Origin: Vandiemenella viatica
Taxonomy: Eukaryota > Arthropoda > Insecta > Orthoptera > Morabidae
DNA: 64,000 nt
Assembly: GCA_031002005.1 (NCBI GenBank)
Contig: CM061918.1
Location: forward strand, 64,266,531-64,330,530
Direction: 5' to 3'
The notes under the pieces were generated by a model. The model ran no database searches and was not told the DNA's origin. It saw only the letters and a list, made by a program, of their open reading frames with translations. The position numbers were made by a program, and so were the translations under genes. Shown one piece after another: positions 2,833 to 40,795 of this stretch; within the stretch, counting starts at the first letter, position 1, and every line of letters starts with the position of its first letter.

Positions 2833-3136
2833 CAGTGGTGGATCCAACGGGGGTAGGGTAGGGGGGCTAGGGGGCTCAAGACCCCCTACCAAAAAAAAAA
2901 AAAAATATCCAGGGTCCACCCCAGAAATCGATTTTGTAGATTTGGAGACCTTTTTTTTTAGCTCTACCGAATTTTAAGGGCGGCACGACTATAAAGCCTA
3001 CCCTTACCCAACTCAAACCCCCCCAAACGAAATCCGCTCAAGCCCCCCCAAACCAAAATTCGCTCATGCCCCCCAAAACCAAAATCTCCTCAAGCCCCTC
3101 CCCCCCCCCCAAACCAAAATCCTGGATCCGCCACAG
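2833..3136. mobile_element. hAT-like MITE with 8-bp target duplication
   Basis: Termini CAGTGGTGGATCCA and, reversed, CTGTGGCGGATCCA. Flanked by AAAATTGT (2825-2832) and ATAATTGT (3137-3144), 7 of 8 matching, as expected for hAT insertion. The interior has C-runs with three to four tandem copies of a roughly 27-bp unit containing AAACCAAAAT. No coding capacity. Confidence 0.8.
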
Positions 3137-3144
3137 ATAATTGT

Positions 3145-3989
3145 TATACTCACTAACCATTCTTCGAGATTAGGAAGATTAGGCGAAACGATAATCATGA
3201 TAGTAAAAACTGTAACTGACCATATGATATACAAGGCGATATACCATTTTAATAATCTTGAAAATATGTTTGTATGAGCATATAAATTTTACTCTGGCGA
3301 ATCTGCTACTGGTACTGACAACTTAAAACACATTTAGACATGAATGGGTGATATATCAGAGCTAATATTAAAATTTAAATCTTTAAGCCGCTAAGATCAG
3401 TAGGCCAGAGCAGAAATTTGATAGTTAACTAACGTGTCGTTGTGGTCTAGTTCTTCTTTTTTTTCTCAACAGTTAGGTTGGTCGGCATTTTTTGTTGGGA
3501 TATTTAACGGGGTAGATACAGCTAACACATACAAATATTTGTAGAAATTGAAATTTCATTTTCTCCAAATCTATGTATTCTCGTGTTTTGTTTGGATAAC
3601 TGTTATGTATGTTCGTTCGGTGTAGTACCTTTTTTTTGTGTTCTCAGAGAACGAAAGATCGAAGAAGGGAGATGATTAAACCCGGTGCGGCCCCATTGAG
3701 GTCTACTCTTTCAAAGAACACCAGGGGGCCACCACCAGGCTTAACGTCACATCCAAATCACCACCAGTCGTATGCCCTCACTCCAAACCCATTGCAAAGT
3801 GATATGAGATTTAACTCAGAACGCTGATGCACAATCTGAAGATTAGAAATACTCTCCTACCCTGCAAGCCAAGTCCTGATGATGAAATTTTCTTCCAGGA
3901 TTCGAAGCAGCTAACCCGTCACACAACCAACTGAGACAATGGGTGGTCATTTTTAGTCGATGTTTAATTGCGACTGTTGCACTTAATGG

Positions 3990-3992
<3 letters not shown>
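3145..3992. other. no gene seen
   Basis: AT-rich intronic sequence. The 72-codon plus frame at 3609-3827 has no recognisable feature. Confidence 0.6.
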
Positions 3993-4029
<37 letters not shown>

Positions 4030-4253
4030 TATGGCCTTTCGCCTTGTCGACGTCGAAATCACTAGAGGCGGGATAGGACTGTGAACAAGGAACGGGAAGG
4101 GATTCGGCCATGTCCTTTTGAAGGAAGCATCCCCGAATTCGCATGGAGAGGTTTGGAGAAACCATGGAAAACCCAATTCTGTATGCGCGGACGCGGATTC
4201 AAATCGGCGTCTTCCCAAATGCGAGGCCAGAACGTTAACCACTCACCCACCAG
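3993..4253 (-). mobile_element. SINE family A
   Basis: Minus-oriented copy with a long T-run (3993-4026, its A tail) and the tRNA-like head at about 4180-4253. GGTGAT occurs at both edges as a short possible target duplication. Confidence 0.85.
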
Positions 4254-4255
4254 GT

Positions 4256-5186
4256 GCGGTCACTGGTGATGTAAGTGGCTGAAACATCGCGCAGTAAATC
4301 ACAGTAATAGTCGCTGTATGCTCGAGAATCAGTTTCCATGGATGAAAATTCTTGAACGTCTTTCGTAAGATGCATAAACTTCCACGAAAAGTATCAGATG
4401 TAAACAATTCATCCTCTCTTAAGACGCTTGCTTTGGAATTGAATATTTCTTAATTTTGTTAATGACCTTACCTTAAATACTAACCAACTCGTAGAGTCTC
4501 CAGCGGTACGAAACATAAAAGTTTTACTAGTAGATAAATTACCTGTAGTAACTATCTTCTATCCTACGGTCAAAAGTGTTGGTTGGTTGTCCGAATTTTG
4601 GTTAATTGGCATAAAATGGTGATGACATAGTTTAGCGTATTTGGACATTATCTTGGATCGCGACTGTCATATCAAGTGACAAAGCTTTACTTCGATAATG
4701 TCAAGTACGCTAGGGCGCTCCGTGTTAGGGATTCTACGTTAAACTCTAGGTTCTCTTTACCCAGTAGGATTACCAGATTAGGTTATTCGGCTACGATAAA
4801 GAGGAATAAACAGCTGGTAAATTGTGTTATTGGGTCTTGCAGACCGTATGGAGTTATTATTTTACTGCCCTAAGATTAACACATAGGTATCATCTCGCAT
4901 CTCTTTATATTCCGTAAATTAACATGATCAGTGTAGGATGCTAATCCTTAGCAAATGCGCACAACAGTTCTATCTTTGTTGACAAATAAATGTGCACACG
5001 AAAAGAAAGTTAATATTGCCCTTGATCAACTCAAATAGTGTATTTCCCTGTGAATAATTTTCACTATTCACTAGCGAATAAAGAAAACATTGTGCTCATT
5101 TCTGTTTGTAAATAATATATTAACCTAGCCCGATCTAAAGAAATAGTGGCTATGACTATGCATGCGACACTGGATCGCAATTAAAG
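4256..5186. other. no gene seen; one hairpin
   Basis: AT-rich. An 18-bp imperfect inverted repeat (GCGTATTTGGACATTATC at about 4634 against GATAATGTCAAGTACGC at about 4696) could form a hairpin. No coding signal. Confidence 0.55.
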
Positions 5187-5402
5187 GTGAAAGCACGTGT
5201 GGTCGTAACGACCTGGTCACAGTTTTATTGGCGTCAGTTTGACGTGGAATCCGATTTATGGAAAAGTTCTGGCGTACTTCACATTATACAGGTATACAGG
5301 AACCAATGCCAGATGTCAAGGTCCATTGAAAATCCCTGCCGAGACATGGGTTTCCGGGGATCTTTTGATTTCTAGTCCGATGCCATAACCATGGAACTAC
5401 CC
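5187..5402 (-). mobile_element. SINE family B (diverged)
   Basis: Minus-oriented: TGTGGTCGTAACGACCTGGT, GACGTGGAATCCG, GGCGTACTTCACATTA and AAAATCCCTGCCGAGAC match the B body; the head is degraded. It lies about 200 bp from the hh exon 2 donor. Confidence 0.7.
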
Positions 5403-5607
5403 TAACCACTGGAAACTGGAGTGCAATTGGACGCGACCAAAGCTTTCGTTTAGTTCGCAGGCACCGTATGAGAATGCCACCTAAATGCAAAATCGCCAAG
5501 TAAACGTGGATATTGTTGATGACACTGGCTGTAAACACAGAGAAACTTGTTCTTGATTCTCAAAGTATGTGATATACTTAGAAGACTATTTTGTGTGGGG
5601 TACTTAC

Positions 5608-5869
5608 CGGACTTGACGGAGCAGTGTATGTGCGCCCTGGACTCGTAGTAGACCCAGTCGAAGCCCGCCTCGACTGCCAGCCTGGCCAGCATGCCGTACT
5701 TGGAGCGGTCCCGGTCGCTGGTGGTGACGTCCACGGCGCGGCCCTCGTAGTGCAGAGAGTCTGCGGAGTGGTGGCCCTCCTCGTCCCAGCCCTCCGTCAC
5801 GCGCAGACGCACCCCCGGCCACTGGTTCATCACGGAGATCGCCAGCGTGTTCAGCCGCTCCTTGCACCG
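5608..5869 (-). CDS. hh: hedgehog exon 2 (internal coding exon, signalling domain)
   Basis: Encodes the middle of the Hedgehog N-terminal signalling domain, the secreted morphogen processed and lipid-modified from a precursor and bound by Patched. The exon starts after TTTGTTGCAG (CAG at 5872-5870) in phase 0 with codons [12 protein letters not shown], and ends in phase 1 at G|GTAAGT (donor GT at 5607-5606): 87 codons plus one base. Visible motifs in order: [11 protein letters not shown] (residues 9-19), [10 protein letters not shown] (25-34), LHYEGRAVD (39-47), [20 protein letters not shown] (51-70) and HIHC (80-83). By alignment to vertebrate Shh, zinc ligands are H40, D47 and H82 with E76 the protease-like glutamate; calcium ligands correspond to E26, D29 and E31 (Asp in Shh). 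Drosophila, as I recall it, lacks the D47 equivalent, so this is a less derived Hh. A branch-point-like CTAAC lies about 25 bases upstream of the exon (5896-5892). The exon is markedly GC-rich against AT-rich flanks. Exons 1 (to the right) and 3 (to the left) were not found. Confidence 0.97.
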
Positions 5870-7610
5870 CTGCAACAAAGCCAACAGCACAGTTAGATTA
5901 CCCCACACCTGACACCATTCCCGAACACTGCAAGACTCTGTGCGCTCACATAACATCCAAGTAACCAGCGTACCAAAGGATGCTCTTTCCACCGCGTACA
6001 AACAACGACAATCAGTTTAGACGATGGGTTATCGTACATTTGGCATCATTTTTGGAATTCTGTAATATACTTCCATCACGCCTAACATTGTCCCCAGCAG
6101 AATACCGTTGCTCTACATGGCTTGGTAGTGCTCATACTGCCAAAGTTGACACCCAGCTAAACGCTGCTATGAGAACAGTGAGTGGTGTCATTAGGTCTGC
6201 CCCAGTATCCTGGCTGCCTGTACTTTCCAACATTCCTCCACCACATCTGAGGAGAAAATCGATATTTCTTAGATAATTGGAAGGAGTGGAGGAAAACAAC
6301 ATGATTCCTCTGCATGATGCTCTTCCTCGTACACGTTTAAAATCGAGGAGACCCGCCTGCATGGAAGCAGCCAGTCGCAGACATAACAACTTTAACTTAT
6401 ATGAAGAGTGGAGTGGGAAGCCAACAGCACACACAACTGTGTGCTTATAAAAGATCCGAAAACCTGTGTTCCAGGGTTTGACTTGGCTAGGCGTTTTCGG
6501 TGTCGATTCAACAGATTTCGCACAGGTCACGGAGTGTGCAATGCAACATTGCATAAATGGGGTCTCCGTGAAGATGCATTGTGTGACTGTAGTGGTGTAC
6601 AAACTGCTGACCACATTGTGATGGACTGTCCAGCAAGAAGAATATCTGAAGGCCTTCTCACACTGCATCAAGCTGGATCAGCTGGCAGTAGATGGCTTGA
6701 ATCTAAAGATATAGTTATTTGATTCTACATGTCTTTTGTTGTACTTGGCATACGATAATAATAATCACGCCAAAGGCCAGCTTCTTCCATATTGCAACGC
6801 TGCAATAACGAACGAAGTGATGTTAGATGAAACTATTCCCCACATCTGACAACATTTAAGAGGTTTTAGTGACTCTGTGGAATTGAGCAACAAAGGTCAA
6901 ATGCACAAAGTCAGCGTTCTGAGATGCTCCTTGTGCAGCTAGCACAGCAGTAACAATGCTGTTACATGAAGATTTACACCGACCTGGCATCATTAAGATT
7001 AAGGAGCATCCCACATCTGACACCATTTTTTGGGGTTCTGTAGCACACATTTATCACTCAAATAACCAGCTCCTTTCCCCCTGAACCAATGGAATAACGA
7101 AGGGTGTTGTTAGATGAAACTATTCCTCACATCTGACTCTGTTTAACAGTTTAAAGTGATATTATAGAATCTAGTAACAATGGTTGATGAGTTTTGTATC
7201 CAGTGTAGTGAAACGCTCCTTGTACAGCTGTAACAATGAAAATCCTGTTACAGAACGCGTGCACCAGACCTGACATCACTGCAAAGTTTTTGTTACTTTG
7301 TTGGGTCCTGCAGTACTGATCCATCATACAGATAGCCAACGTATTGGACGCTCTTTCCATCACAAGACAATAATGAAATAACGAGAACGGTGTTACATGA
7401 AGCCTTAACCCACTTCTGATTCCATGACCTGTGACCCTTTAAGCGCCTGCAATACTGCTCAATTTTTCAGATAGTCAGCGTTTTTAAACGTTCCTTCCGC
7501 TGATGCAACAACAAAGACGGTAATGTTAAATTAAGCTGTTACCCACATCTTGCATCATTTTAACCTCTTCGGTGACTATTTACAATCCTGCAACATATGT
7601 AACAGATACT
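5812..7610 (-). repeat. diverged tandem array of hh exon-2 splice-acceptor units
   Basis: About eight units of roughly 120-155 bp repeat the junction between hh intron 1 and exon 2. On the minus strand each unit runs: CAG plus a variable piece, a segment like ATGATGYCAGATGTGGG, CTAAC (branch-point-like), T-rich stretch, CAG, then sequence resembling the first 15-20 codons of exon 2. Exon-like starts fall near 5869 (true), 5990, 6815, 6940, 7075, 7230, 7360 and 7499. Conceptual reading of the copies shows the homology: near 7360 MERASNTLAICMMDQYC, near 7499 RKERLKTLTI, near 7230 LYKERFTTL, against [16 protein letters not shown] in the real exon. Several copies keep a CAG acceptor (7499, 7230, 7075, 6815). 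A Jockey-like LINE splits the array at about 6066-6767. Divergence is high, so the duplications are old. Confidence 0.85.
6066..6767 (+). mobile_element. Jockey-like LINE, 3' part with frameshifts
   Basis: C-terminal end of a non-LTR retrotransposon ORF2: AEYRCSTWLGSAHT, QLNAAMRTVSG, WLPVLSNIPPP, then after a frameshift FNRFRTGHGVCNATLHKWGL and ADHIVMDCPARR, the zinc-knuckle-like tail typical of the Jockey group. The 3' end is an ATA-rich tail shared with the copy ending near 26321. It is 5'-truncated, has stops, and splits the hh acceptor array. Confidence 0.85.
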
Positions 7611-8300
7611 GAGTTTTTCGGGGACTGCACCATTTTCGGAACCTTCGCGAAACTGGTATCTCTGACGAAGGCTGGAGGATACCAGCCAAAAGCTTAGGTA
7701 ATGAAATAAACTACGCGGCAAAACCCGAAAGTCAATTAATCATGGTATTAACCTGTTGAAATTTACATCAGTCGCTTCGTCAACATGTCTTCTTCACGTT
7801 TAGCGTTCATACTTTGCGGAAAAGTTACGTTTAATTAAAAATGCCGAAATATAACATGACGCACAGGTGTTGTATGCCGCCATCGTTGAAAAATCAGTGA
7901 CAGTCTCTTAAAATGTTGATTTAATCCTTTGTTGTAATGATTTCTTGCCTTTTAAGCTCTTCTCCGTTGTAAAAAGTCGTGCAAAATTGACAAATAGACA
8001 ATATTTATCTGAGTTGTAATACGGTGATGCCCGCCATCTTACATAGCAACGAGCAACCAGAGATAATCGATTGCTTACATCGTAAACAAATACGCCATTT
8101 CCGTGGTGGATGCAGCATAGCGAAAATTTCGAAAATAATTTTTCGCTTGGTTTAGGCGGTATTTCAAGCTAACCACGATTTCTATGACAAAACGAAATTT
8201 TTTAGGTTGAAATGATACCTTTACCGATTTATGTTATTTTTGCAGTGTTGATAGCATTTCGGCATTTTTAATTAATTTTCTAGCGACTTTTAGAAATTTG
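7611..8300. mobile_element. interspersed repeat R4 with inverted internal arms
   Basis: 7740-7830 (TGAAATTTACATCAGTCGCT, CGTCAACATG, TTCACGTTT) recurs inverted at 43480-43600. Inside, TTAATTAAAAATGCCGAAAT (about 7832) pairs with ATTTCGGCATTTTTAATTAA (about 8253), suggesting a foldback. No coding capacity. Confidence 0.6.
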
Positions 8301-30500: not shown

Positions 30501-30507
30501 TAGGATC

Positions 30508-31500
30508 AACCGATGTCGGTGGCTGAGCCTCGTATGTTCAGCCCGTTCGGCCTACAGATTAACCGATATCGGTGGCTGAGCCTCGTATGTTCAGCCCCGT
30601 CCGGCCTTCAGATTAACTGATGTCGGTGGCTGAGCCTCGTTGTTCAGCCCCGTCCAGCCTTCAGATTAACCGATATCGGTGGCTGAGCCTTCAGATTAAC
30701 CGATGTCGGTGGCTGAGCCTTCAGATTAACCGATGTCGGTGGCTGAGCCTTCAGATTAACCGATGTCGGTGGCTGAGCCTCGTTGTTCAGCCCCGTCCAG
30801 CCTTCAGATTAACCGATATCGGTGGCTGAGCCTTCAGATTAACCGATGTCGGTGGCTGAGCCTTCAGATTAACCGATGTCGGTGGCTGAGCCTTCAGATT
30901 AACCGATGTCGGTGGCTGAGCCTTCAGATTAACCGATGTCGGTGGCTGAGCCTTCAGATTAACCGATGTCGGTGGCTGAGCCTCGTTGTTCAGCCCCGTC
31001 CAGCCTTCAGATTAACCGATATCGGTGGCTGAGCCTTCAGATTAACAGATGTCGGTGGTTGAGCCTCGTATGTTCAGCCCCGTCCAGCCTTCAGATTAAC
31101 CGATGTCGGTGACTGAGCCTCGTATGTTCAGCCCCGTCCAGCCTTCAGATTAACCGATGTCGGTGGCTGAGCCTCGTATGTTCAGCCCCGTCCAGCCTTC
31201 AGATTAACCGATGTCGGTGGCTGAGCCTCGTATGTTCAGCCCCGTCCAGCCTTCAGATTAACCGATGTCGGTGGCTGAGCCTCGTATGTTCAGCCCCGTC
31301 CAGCCTTCAGATTAACCGATGTCGGTGGCTGAGCCTCGTATGTTCAGCCCGTCCAGCCTTCAGATTAACCGATGTCGGTGACTGAGCCTTCAGATTAACC
31401 AATGTCGGTGGCTGAGCCTCGTATGTTCAGCCCCGTCCAGCCTTCAGATTAACCGATGTCGGTGGCTGAGCCTCGCATGGTCAAGCCCCGTCCGGCCTTC
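30508..31500. repeat. minisatellite with higher-order structure
   Basis: About 23 copies of a 30-bp core (TTCAGATTAACCGATGTCGG plus TGGCTGAGCC). Some cores abut directly; others carry a 22-25-bp spacer (TCGTATGTTCAGCCCCGTCC plus AGCC), giving 52-55-bp units. Three blocks begin with a GATATC variant core followed by 3, 5 and 1 GATGTC-type cores, so multi-core blocks were themselves duplicated. The right part is regular 55-bp units. Since 30 bp is ten codons it opens a spurious repeated frame (LQINRCRWLS). Confidence 0.95.
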
Positions 31501-31502
31501 AA

Positions 31503-39271: not shown

Positions 39272-40144
39272 TGTGTTGAAAGCTGATGTTATAGCAGTTT
39301 GCCAGTTCACCCTAAACTCCTGTTAGCACGAATCATAAACAGCAATAAAAACTTGATAAATCAAATCAACGTTTATTTTCAAGCAGCAGATTTATTAATT
39401 TTTTTCTTTCGATAATTCAGATTAAATACATCGATGATTAGGTTGTGAATGCATATTGGAATAAATCTATGTATCACATTATAAACAATTATGTTTCGGA
39501 TGAAACGATGTACAAGGTTATTAAAAATGACTGTCGGGCATTTTTTACTTCATTAGGCGCGAAATAGCAAAAATTCGTTTAGGAGTTTTCACGGGTGTAT
39601 CCTCTTTGTTTTGTTCCTTTCCCCCAGTCCAATAGTTACGTTTTTCGCTGCCTTGCGGCCAACAGTCGGATTAAGCATTTTCGAATTTTATTTCAGGCGA
39701 CGTATTGGAAAGATTCACTCCCCGGCAATTCCCTTCACAAGATGATATGCACGGTTTATGAAAATGAAAAAGCAGCGGGCGACCTTCTGTGTCAGAATCG
39801 AACGTGGTCTGGCTCAGTGAAGCTTTTCAACGCAGGCGTAGGAAATAGACTAAACAAATTAGCGGTGCACTGTGTATACCGCAAACCACAGCTTAGAAAG
39901 TGTTGAGGAGTAGTTTCACACCAACATGCTGCACTGTGTGTCGGCGGAAAAGGACTACTCTGTAAGAGATTGCAGAGTGACAAAAGGACGCAAATATCGA
40001 GCATTTGTAATAATTTATTTAAAAAAAAAAAGCCTTTGTAAAGTTTGGTACGTAAGAAATTAGGATTCTTATCTTTATATCAACTCTACTGATGCATCAA
40101 GTTTTTGAGACTCCGTTAATTTTCATATATATTATTTCTAAAAC
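39272..40144. other. no gene seen
   Basis: AT-rich. The 103-codon plus frame at 39595-39906 has no recognisable domain. Confidence 0.5.
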
Positions 40145-40795
40145 GTCTTATATTGTCACAAACCATTATCTCCCTTGATACCTAACCGAAACTTATAAAT
40201 GAGGTATCATTTTAATGATTAAGGTATCTGCTTTAGTCACATCATATTTTAAGCAAGTAGTTTTTCCAAATTCGACCCTTAAAGGACAAAAATGTCAATA
40301 TTTCAACAAAAACAATTTTTTTGTACCACGAACCATTTATCTCCCTATATTCCTAACCGAAATAGATGAATAAGTATCATTTTAAAGATTAAGATATCCA
40401 CTTTGGTGACATCATATATTAAGAAAGGAATTTTTGGGGATTCGACCCTTAAAGAACAAAAGTATAAACATTTCTACAACGCGTTTTTTGTGTCACGAGC
40501 CATTTATCCCCCTTGATATCTAAGCAATATGGTTAAATGATTTATCATTTTAAAGGTTAAGGACTCCACTGTGGCCAAACATATTTTAAGAAAAGAATTT
40601 GACCCTTAAATGATAAAAGTATCATTATTTCCATAACGTGCTTTTGCCATTTATCTCCCTTAATACCTAACCGAAATCGATGAATGAGGTATCATTTAAA
40701 ATATGAAAGGTCTCCATTAGGGCAACGTTAGAAACTAAAAACGAATTCTTTCGGAATTTGACCCTTGAAGTACAAAAGTAATAACTGTGAAAGTC
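40145..40795. repeat. four-unit diverged tandem repeat
   Basis: Units of about 145-175 bp, each with CCATTTATCTCCCTTGATAC, CTAACCGAAA, GAGGTATCATTTTAA, ATCATATTTTAAG and TTYGACCCTTAAA in the same order. Starts fall near 40155, 40330, 40500 and 40640. No coding capacity. Confidence 0.85.

Follow-up and report, generated by a model that had tools for sequence, protein, structure and literature searches.

Upstream of exon 2 of the hedgehog (hh) gene of Vandiemenella viatica, the end of intron 1 and the beginning of the exon recur in tandem, which raises the question of how the splice junction of a core morphogen gene came to be multiplied and whether the copies still act in splicing. We addressed this question in a window of 64,000 nucleotides (contig CM061918.1, positions 64,266,531 to 64,330,530 of the forward strand), in which hh lies on the minus strand; positions refer to this window unless they carry the scaffold prefix C5. 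An earlier, sequence-only reading had described the repeats as a ladder of decoy 3' splice sites. According to our favoured explanation, to which we assign a probability of roughly 0.8, the array is the fossil of a tandem duplication across the intron-exon junction and is now near-neutral.

The functional exon 2 (5608..5869, minus strand, 262 nt; RCKERLNTL...HCSVKS) is followed by GTAAGT. In total, 86 residues match the Sonic hedgehog N-product with an E-value of 8e-53, and the best protein match among those listed comes from Timema (95%). In many proteins among the 120 listed of 800 matches, the RCK(E/D)... start follows an unrelated leader, which often ends in Q, like a read-through CAG, and we take this start as a presumably conserved intron position. 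Exon 1 (C5:64467448-64467684, minus strand) is located outside the window, ~195 kb upstream, and ends in phase 0 with ACACAG followed by gta. In the window, neither exon 1 nor Hint pieces gave a clear match (best E 0.40 and 3.1, respectively), and Rfam yielded zero matches.

The array comprises seven decayed tandem copies (U1-U7; 5941-7587, minus strand) upstream of the real exon 2 junction (U0). Each unit combines ~85 nt of the intron end, including CTAAC and a T-rich stretch, with the first 50 nt of hh exon 2. A profile of the eight units recovered all of them in a search of the window (all E <= 4.8e-23); besides these, an additional piece of U3 was matched at E 0.001, and nothing else in the window did better than E = 4. 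Leave-one-out profiles built from the other seven units likewise found 8/8, with E-values from 1.1e-5 (U1) to 1.6e-16 (U7), although these tests are partly dependent, as the units were first picked by eye and close relatives such as U2 and U4 help each other. Using the real junction as a Smith-Waterman probe, six non-overlapping array blocks scored 39-58, compared with a maximum of 34 among 6145 blocks outside 5600-8000. The tandem repeat noticed in the sequence-only reading is thus real and stands clear of the background, while its count of about eight units has to be read as seven copies plus the real junction. Pairwise identity across the eight units is 42-67%, and the array is absent from the output of Tandem Repeats Finder because the copies are too diverged.

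Proceeding upstream from the exon, U0 (5820..5947, minus strand, as are all units) is the intact member of the family and contains CTAAC (5896-5892), CAG (5872-5870) and the first 50 nt of the exon. U1 (5941..6078) has lost the acceptor AG, and its left edge is uncertain (~6040-6080) because it adjoins a retroelement fragment. This antisense fragment (6080..6740, plus strand, edges approximate) has a reverse-transcriptase-like tail by eye, gave no Pfam match over 6080-6740 and is present at the same place in a second copy of hh, which is described below. On its other side, U2 (6753..6884) keeps CAG at 6802-6800, and U3 (6888..7040) has TAG at 6941-6939 plus an extra partial intron piece (7040-6996). 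In U4 (7041..7171), which shares a gap in the exon part with U2, the homologous AG is lost and another CAG (7083-7081) is found that is absent from the second hh copy, and U5 (7175..7308) has CAG at 7230-7228, where the second copy reads GTGG. U6 (7311..7453) has lost the acceptor AG and reads ERASNTLAICMMDQ, and U7 (7450..7587), the outermost copy detected in the window, has a CAG displaced by ~3 nt (7502-7500) and reads RKERLKTLTI before a stop. These details correct the earlier description of the ladder: the retroelement fragment splits U1 from U2, and U3 carries the additional intron piece.

In each copy, the intron end is joined to the exon start. The profile match ends at 5820, i.e. at exon nt 50, and nt 52-262 of exon 2 had no match in 9000-5825 at E <= 1. 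At the same threshold, searches for copies of the exon 2 donor region, as distinct from unrelated GT sites, gave no match in 9000-5810, in 5500-1 or in L006 1-6890 from the second hh copy; a copy of the exon 1 donor region was not found within 3.2 kb of L005 either. Judged by its letters, the exon part of the units derives from the neighbouring hh coding exon. Even without the real exon, the consensus of U1-U7 contains an 11-residue hh peptide as in exon 2, and the majority consensus translates to 16 hh-like residues here and to 17 in the second hh copy. When both hh copies are pooled, the decayed-copy consensus gives 16 residues with 39/54 nt identical to the exon, U0 being omitted from this consensus and included in the underlying alignment. 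The consensus thus bears out the Hedgehog-like peptide that had been reported for the copies. For individual copies, this holds only in part: ungapped frame-aware scores here reach 32 (U7), 30 (U6) and 23 (U5), while 123902 positions in the rest of the window reach 30 at most, so that not every copy here is significant by itself. A score of 27 at 6981, inside the array and off register, is probably due to chance. In the second hh copy, the corresponding scores are 47 (U1), 41 (U7), 39 (U5) and 30 (U6).

This second copy was found in a genome search, with its exon 2 at C5:64123832-64124035 (plus strand) and also a second exon 1. Both hh copies are located on the same scaffold in inverted orientation (C5:63903317-64491430; L028, L017, L006, the window and L027), with an intron 1 of ~195 kb and ~197 kb, and facing stretches of the two arms are mostly 83-96% identical in a comparison of stretches sampled outside the centre (~64.147-64.247 Mb) and covering intron 1 in part. 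As assembled, a one-base deletion breaks the frame of exon 2 in the second copy (L006 ~7039). The same eight units are present there in the same order, the array being ~90% identical, and a tree pairs every unit one-to-one with its counterpart in the other hh copy (support 0.975-0.996). A shared array of this kind indicates that it is old and not the product of a local assembly slip. The median JC distance among the decayed units here is 0.82 (0.43-1.11), compared with 0.008-0.171 between counterparts; by this measure, the array appears to be several times as old as the separation of the hh copies, from which we infer its great age. In addition, the second copy contains a further weak unit upstream (L006 3997-4096, E 1.4e-5) and a doubtful one (L006 4156-4192, E 0.71), so that the array may once have been longer.

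The arm with the second hh copy, the left one, starts exactly at the end of a run of N at C5:63903317, which may be an assembly gap or a withheld stretch, and therefore this copy may represent the other haplotype and not a true inverted duplicate. Whichever of the two applies, the array is not explained by a local assembly error in this window. Between the arms, array blocks differ by 0-13%, mostly 5-13%, and exon 2 together with the following 2.7 kb (window 2859-5858 versus L006) by ~1%. Over 6882-6726 (U2), a single ATT is all that distinguishes the two hh copies, and the 100-nt blocks flanking this stretch differ by 7-8%. The simplest account of this near-identity is conversion between the arms or mosaic haplotypes, and constraint is also possible. 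Besides, the step in divergence between the arms (~1% versus mostly 5-13%) sits near the exon 2 acceptor.

Based on these data, it is extremely unlikely that the array reflects chance similarity or an assembly artefact. The low identity between units and the individual peptides here that stay within the background would fit such an explanation, but the E-values and background scores, together with the same eight units at ~90% identity in the second hh copy, contradict it, and chance similarity was rejected on the leave-one-out matches and background scores. A satellite or an hh-like mobile element inserted beside the exon might seem plausible in view of the retroelement pieces and other tandem arrays around the gene. 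However, a whole-genome search with 6750-7610, which skips very common words, returned the two hh loci only (2/2 candidates scored), which led us to discard the mobile element, and the exon part of the unit is hh coding sequence conserved across animals; we consider such an insertion very improbable.

Whether the copies still serve as acceptors depends on their splice sites. Although CAG was first said to persist at the homologous position in four or more units, it is found there in 2/7 copies here (U2 and U5; a count by alignment column lists U2 alone, since a gap splits the CAG of U5) and in 1/7 in the second hh copy (U2). U3 has TAG at this place in both hh copies, the CAG of U7 is ~3 nt off in both, and that of U4 is ~8 nt off, here only. 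Scored with an approximate matrix, the real site reaches 2.8, U5 3.8, the displaced site of U4 3.4, U2 2.6 and U7 1.0; for TTGCAG at the outer join of the array (7589), the score is 3.6, and every copy is surpassed by two AGs of the retroelement fragment (4.7 and 4.5). In 7700-64000, the score of the real acceptor is equalled or exceeded by 110/3117 AGs, and the copies therefore add little to the decoys already present in the intron. Compared with the intron, the array has a somewhat higher density of AGs scoring at least 2 or at least 3 (4.9 versus 3.3 and 2.9 versus 1.7 per kb), whereas those scoring at least 4 are missing from the array (0 versus 0.85 per kb), a mixed picture that rests on ~1 kb of array. 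Between the hh copies, differences amount to 2/49 at the branch point and 1/20 at YAG, which is low but too few to be separated from the overall 85/860. Acceptors that are strongly enriched or maintained were discarded on the basis of these scores, inter-copy differences and CAG counts.

A functional role as decoys, in which the copies would bind U2AF/U2 snRNP and thereby slow or regulate the splicing of the ~195-kb intron 1, is nevertheless suggested by the sites that match or approach the real one, by the retained core of the branch point and by precedent in OGT intron 4 and in further long introns that are retained. Decoy exons are described in retained introns of OGT, SF3B1 and ARGLU1 and resemble the hh copies as non-productive, splice-site-like sequence in a long intron (PMC12017769). 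According to the same source, the OGT decoy has both kinds of splice site (PMC12017769), unlike the hh copies, in which no paired 5' splice site has been copied from the exon and the homologous CAG is mostly lost. With most homologous AGs degraded, the U5 acceptor gone in the second copy and equally good AGs common in the intron, the proposed ladder of decoy 3' splice sites is not supported, and we regard a decoy function as unlikely; the inert state that the sequence-only reading had listed as an option fits best. Even less can be said for the copies as real alternative acceptors that would yield variant hh mRNAs. The CAG of U2 and U5 is well formed, but stops in phase 0 follow the copy acceptors here after 8-24 codons (five sites: U7 10, U5 18, U4 8, U3 13, counted from behind its TAG, and U2 24) and in the second hh copy after 27-58 codons (three sites: U7 58, U3 27, U2 44). 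Therefore, such mRNAs would either be degraded or yield a protein cut short within the signalling domain, which makes this use very unlikely. Coding constraint on the copies was dismissed as well, since the differences between the hh copies are spread evenly over the codon positions (14/120, 14/118 and 16/116).

Two features sit poorly with mere decay, namely the near-identity of U2 between the arms noted above and the branch-point core TAA. This core is kept in 7/7 decayed units of each hh copy, and in neither alignment does any other run of three columns stay invariant. Permutation gave p = 0.003 for the 7-mer, and for the TAA core among A/T columns 0.005 here and 0.002 in the second copy; CTAAC had been named beforehand, but the TAA core was chosen with the alignment already in view, and the two hh copies do not count as independent cases. 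Conceivably, though improbably, the array could be an old branch-point series, whose members lost their AG and their coding sense but, through the retained TAA core and flanking T/A, would bind SF1/U2 snRNP ahead of the real acceptor. In this case, the array would set the pace or fidelity of splicing of the ~195-kb hh intron, and the same retention in relatives would hint at a role in splicing.

Returning to the fossil duplication, the profile, the leave-one-out searches, the decayed-copy consensus and the second hh copy all support the amplification of an exon-intron junction in hh that had been proposed from the first inspection. A segment of ~135 bp that joins the 3' end of hh intron 1 to the initial 50 nt of exon 2 would have been duplicated head to tail. 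Unequal exchange or slippage would have multiplied the duplicates further, with a dimer as the probable unit in one or more of these rounds. The grouping of U2 with U4 (0.849) and of U3 with U5 (0.869) on the tree is in line with such a dimer step, as is a 196-nt match (70%) between stretches that lie two units apart. As every copy is placed on the intronic side of the junction, the true exon kept its reading frame; the copies, released from coding constraint, would have decayed as intron sequence, and the retroelement would have inserted between U1 and U2. Both the mode of exchange and the present near-neutrality are what we infer from this pattern. Further tandem repeats inside hh intron 1 (30504-31501 and 40134-40780) indicate that tandem growth is ordinary there. 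Read in this way, the array documents how a core morphogen gene can have one of its constitutive splice junctions multiplied and remain unbroken, and it offers a natural series of decayed junctions for comparing how acceptor, branch-point and exon signals are lost.

With its head-to-tail units of ~135 bp, its probable dimer step and its decay by point changes and indels, the array resembles intronic minisatellites and internal tandem duplications. Unlike intronic minisatellites, the repeated unit in hh straddles a constitutive intron-exon junction in a developmental gene and thus includes a branch point, an acceptor and coding sequence. In tandem exon duplication, exon sequence is duplicated in tandem, complete with both splice sites; exon sequence is also repeated in tandem in hh, but only the first 50 of the 262 nt of exon 2 were copied, without the donor. 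The seed of the antifreeze glycoprotein repeats reportedly spanned an intron-exon boundary as well, as Chen et al. are said to have described in 1997. The antifreeze glycoprotein genes of notothenioid fish arose from a trypsinogen-like pseudogene, of which a Thr-Ala-Ala motif was expanded in tandem (PMC12776774). On this account, the likeness lies in the tandem expansion, there inside a former protease gene, and the difference in its fate, as those repeats became coding, whereas the hh copies remained intronic and decayed. In the literature, searched mostly outside subscription papers, no described counterpart in hh was found.

Upstream of exon 1, one arm contains a 77-bp tandem repeat with 12.3 copies and 97% matches (L005 1845-2797), whose counterpart in the other arm measures ~186 nt. 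Among loci related by pattern, 0/16 matches on viral contigs and 1/41 on genome contigs were confirmed, the latter on a contig of a bacterial MAG. This contig, filed under a Proteobacteria MAG, contains a hedgehog-like exon (L001 1756-2010, 64% identical), which probably represents animal contamination.
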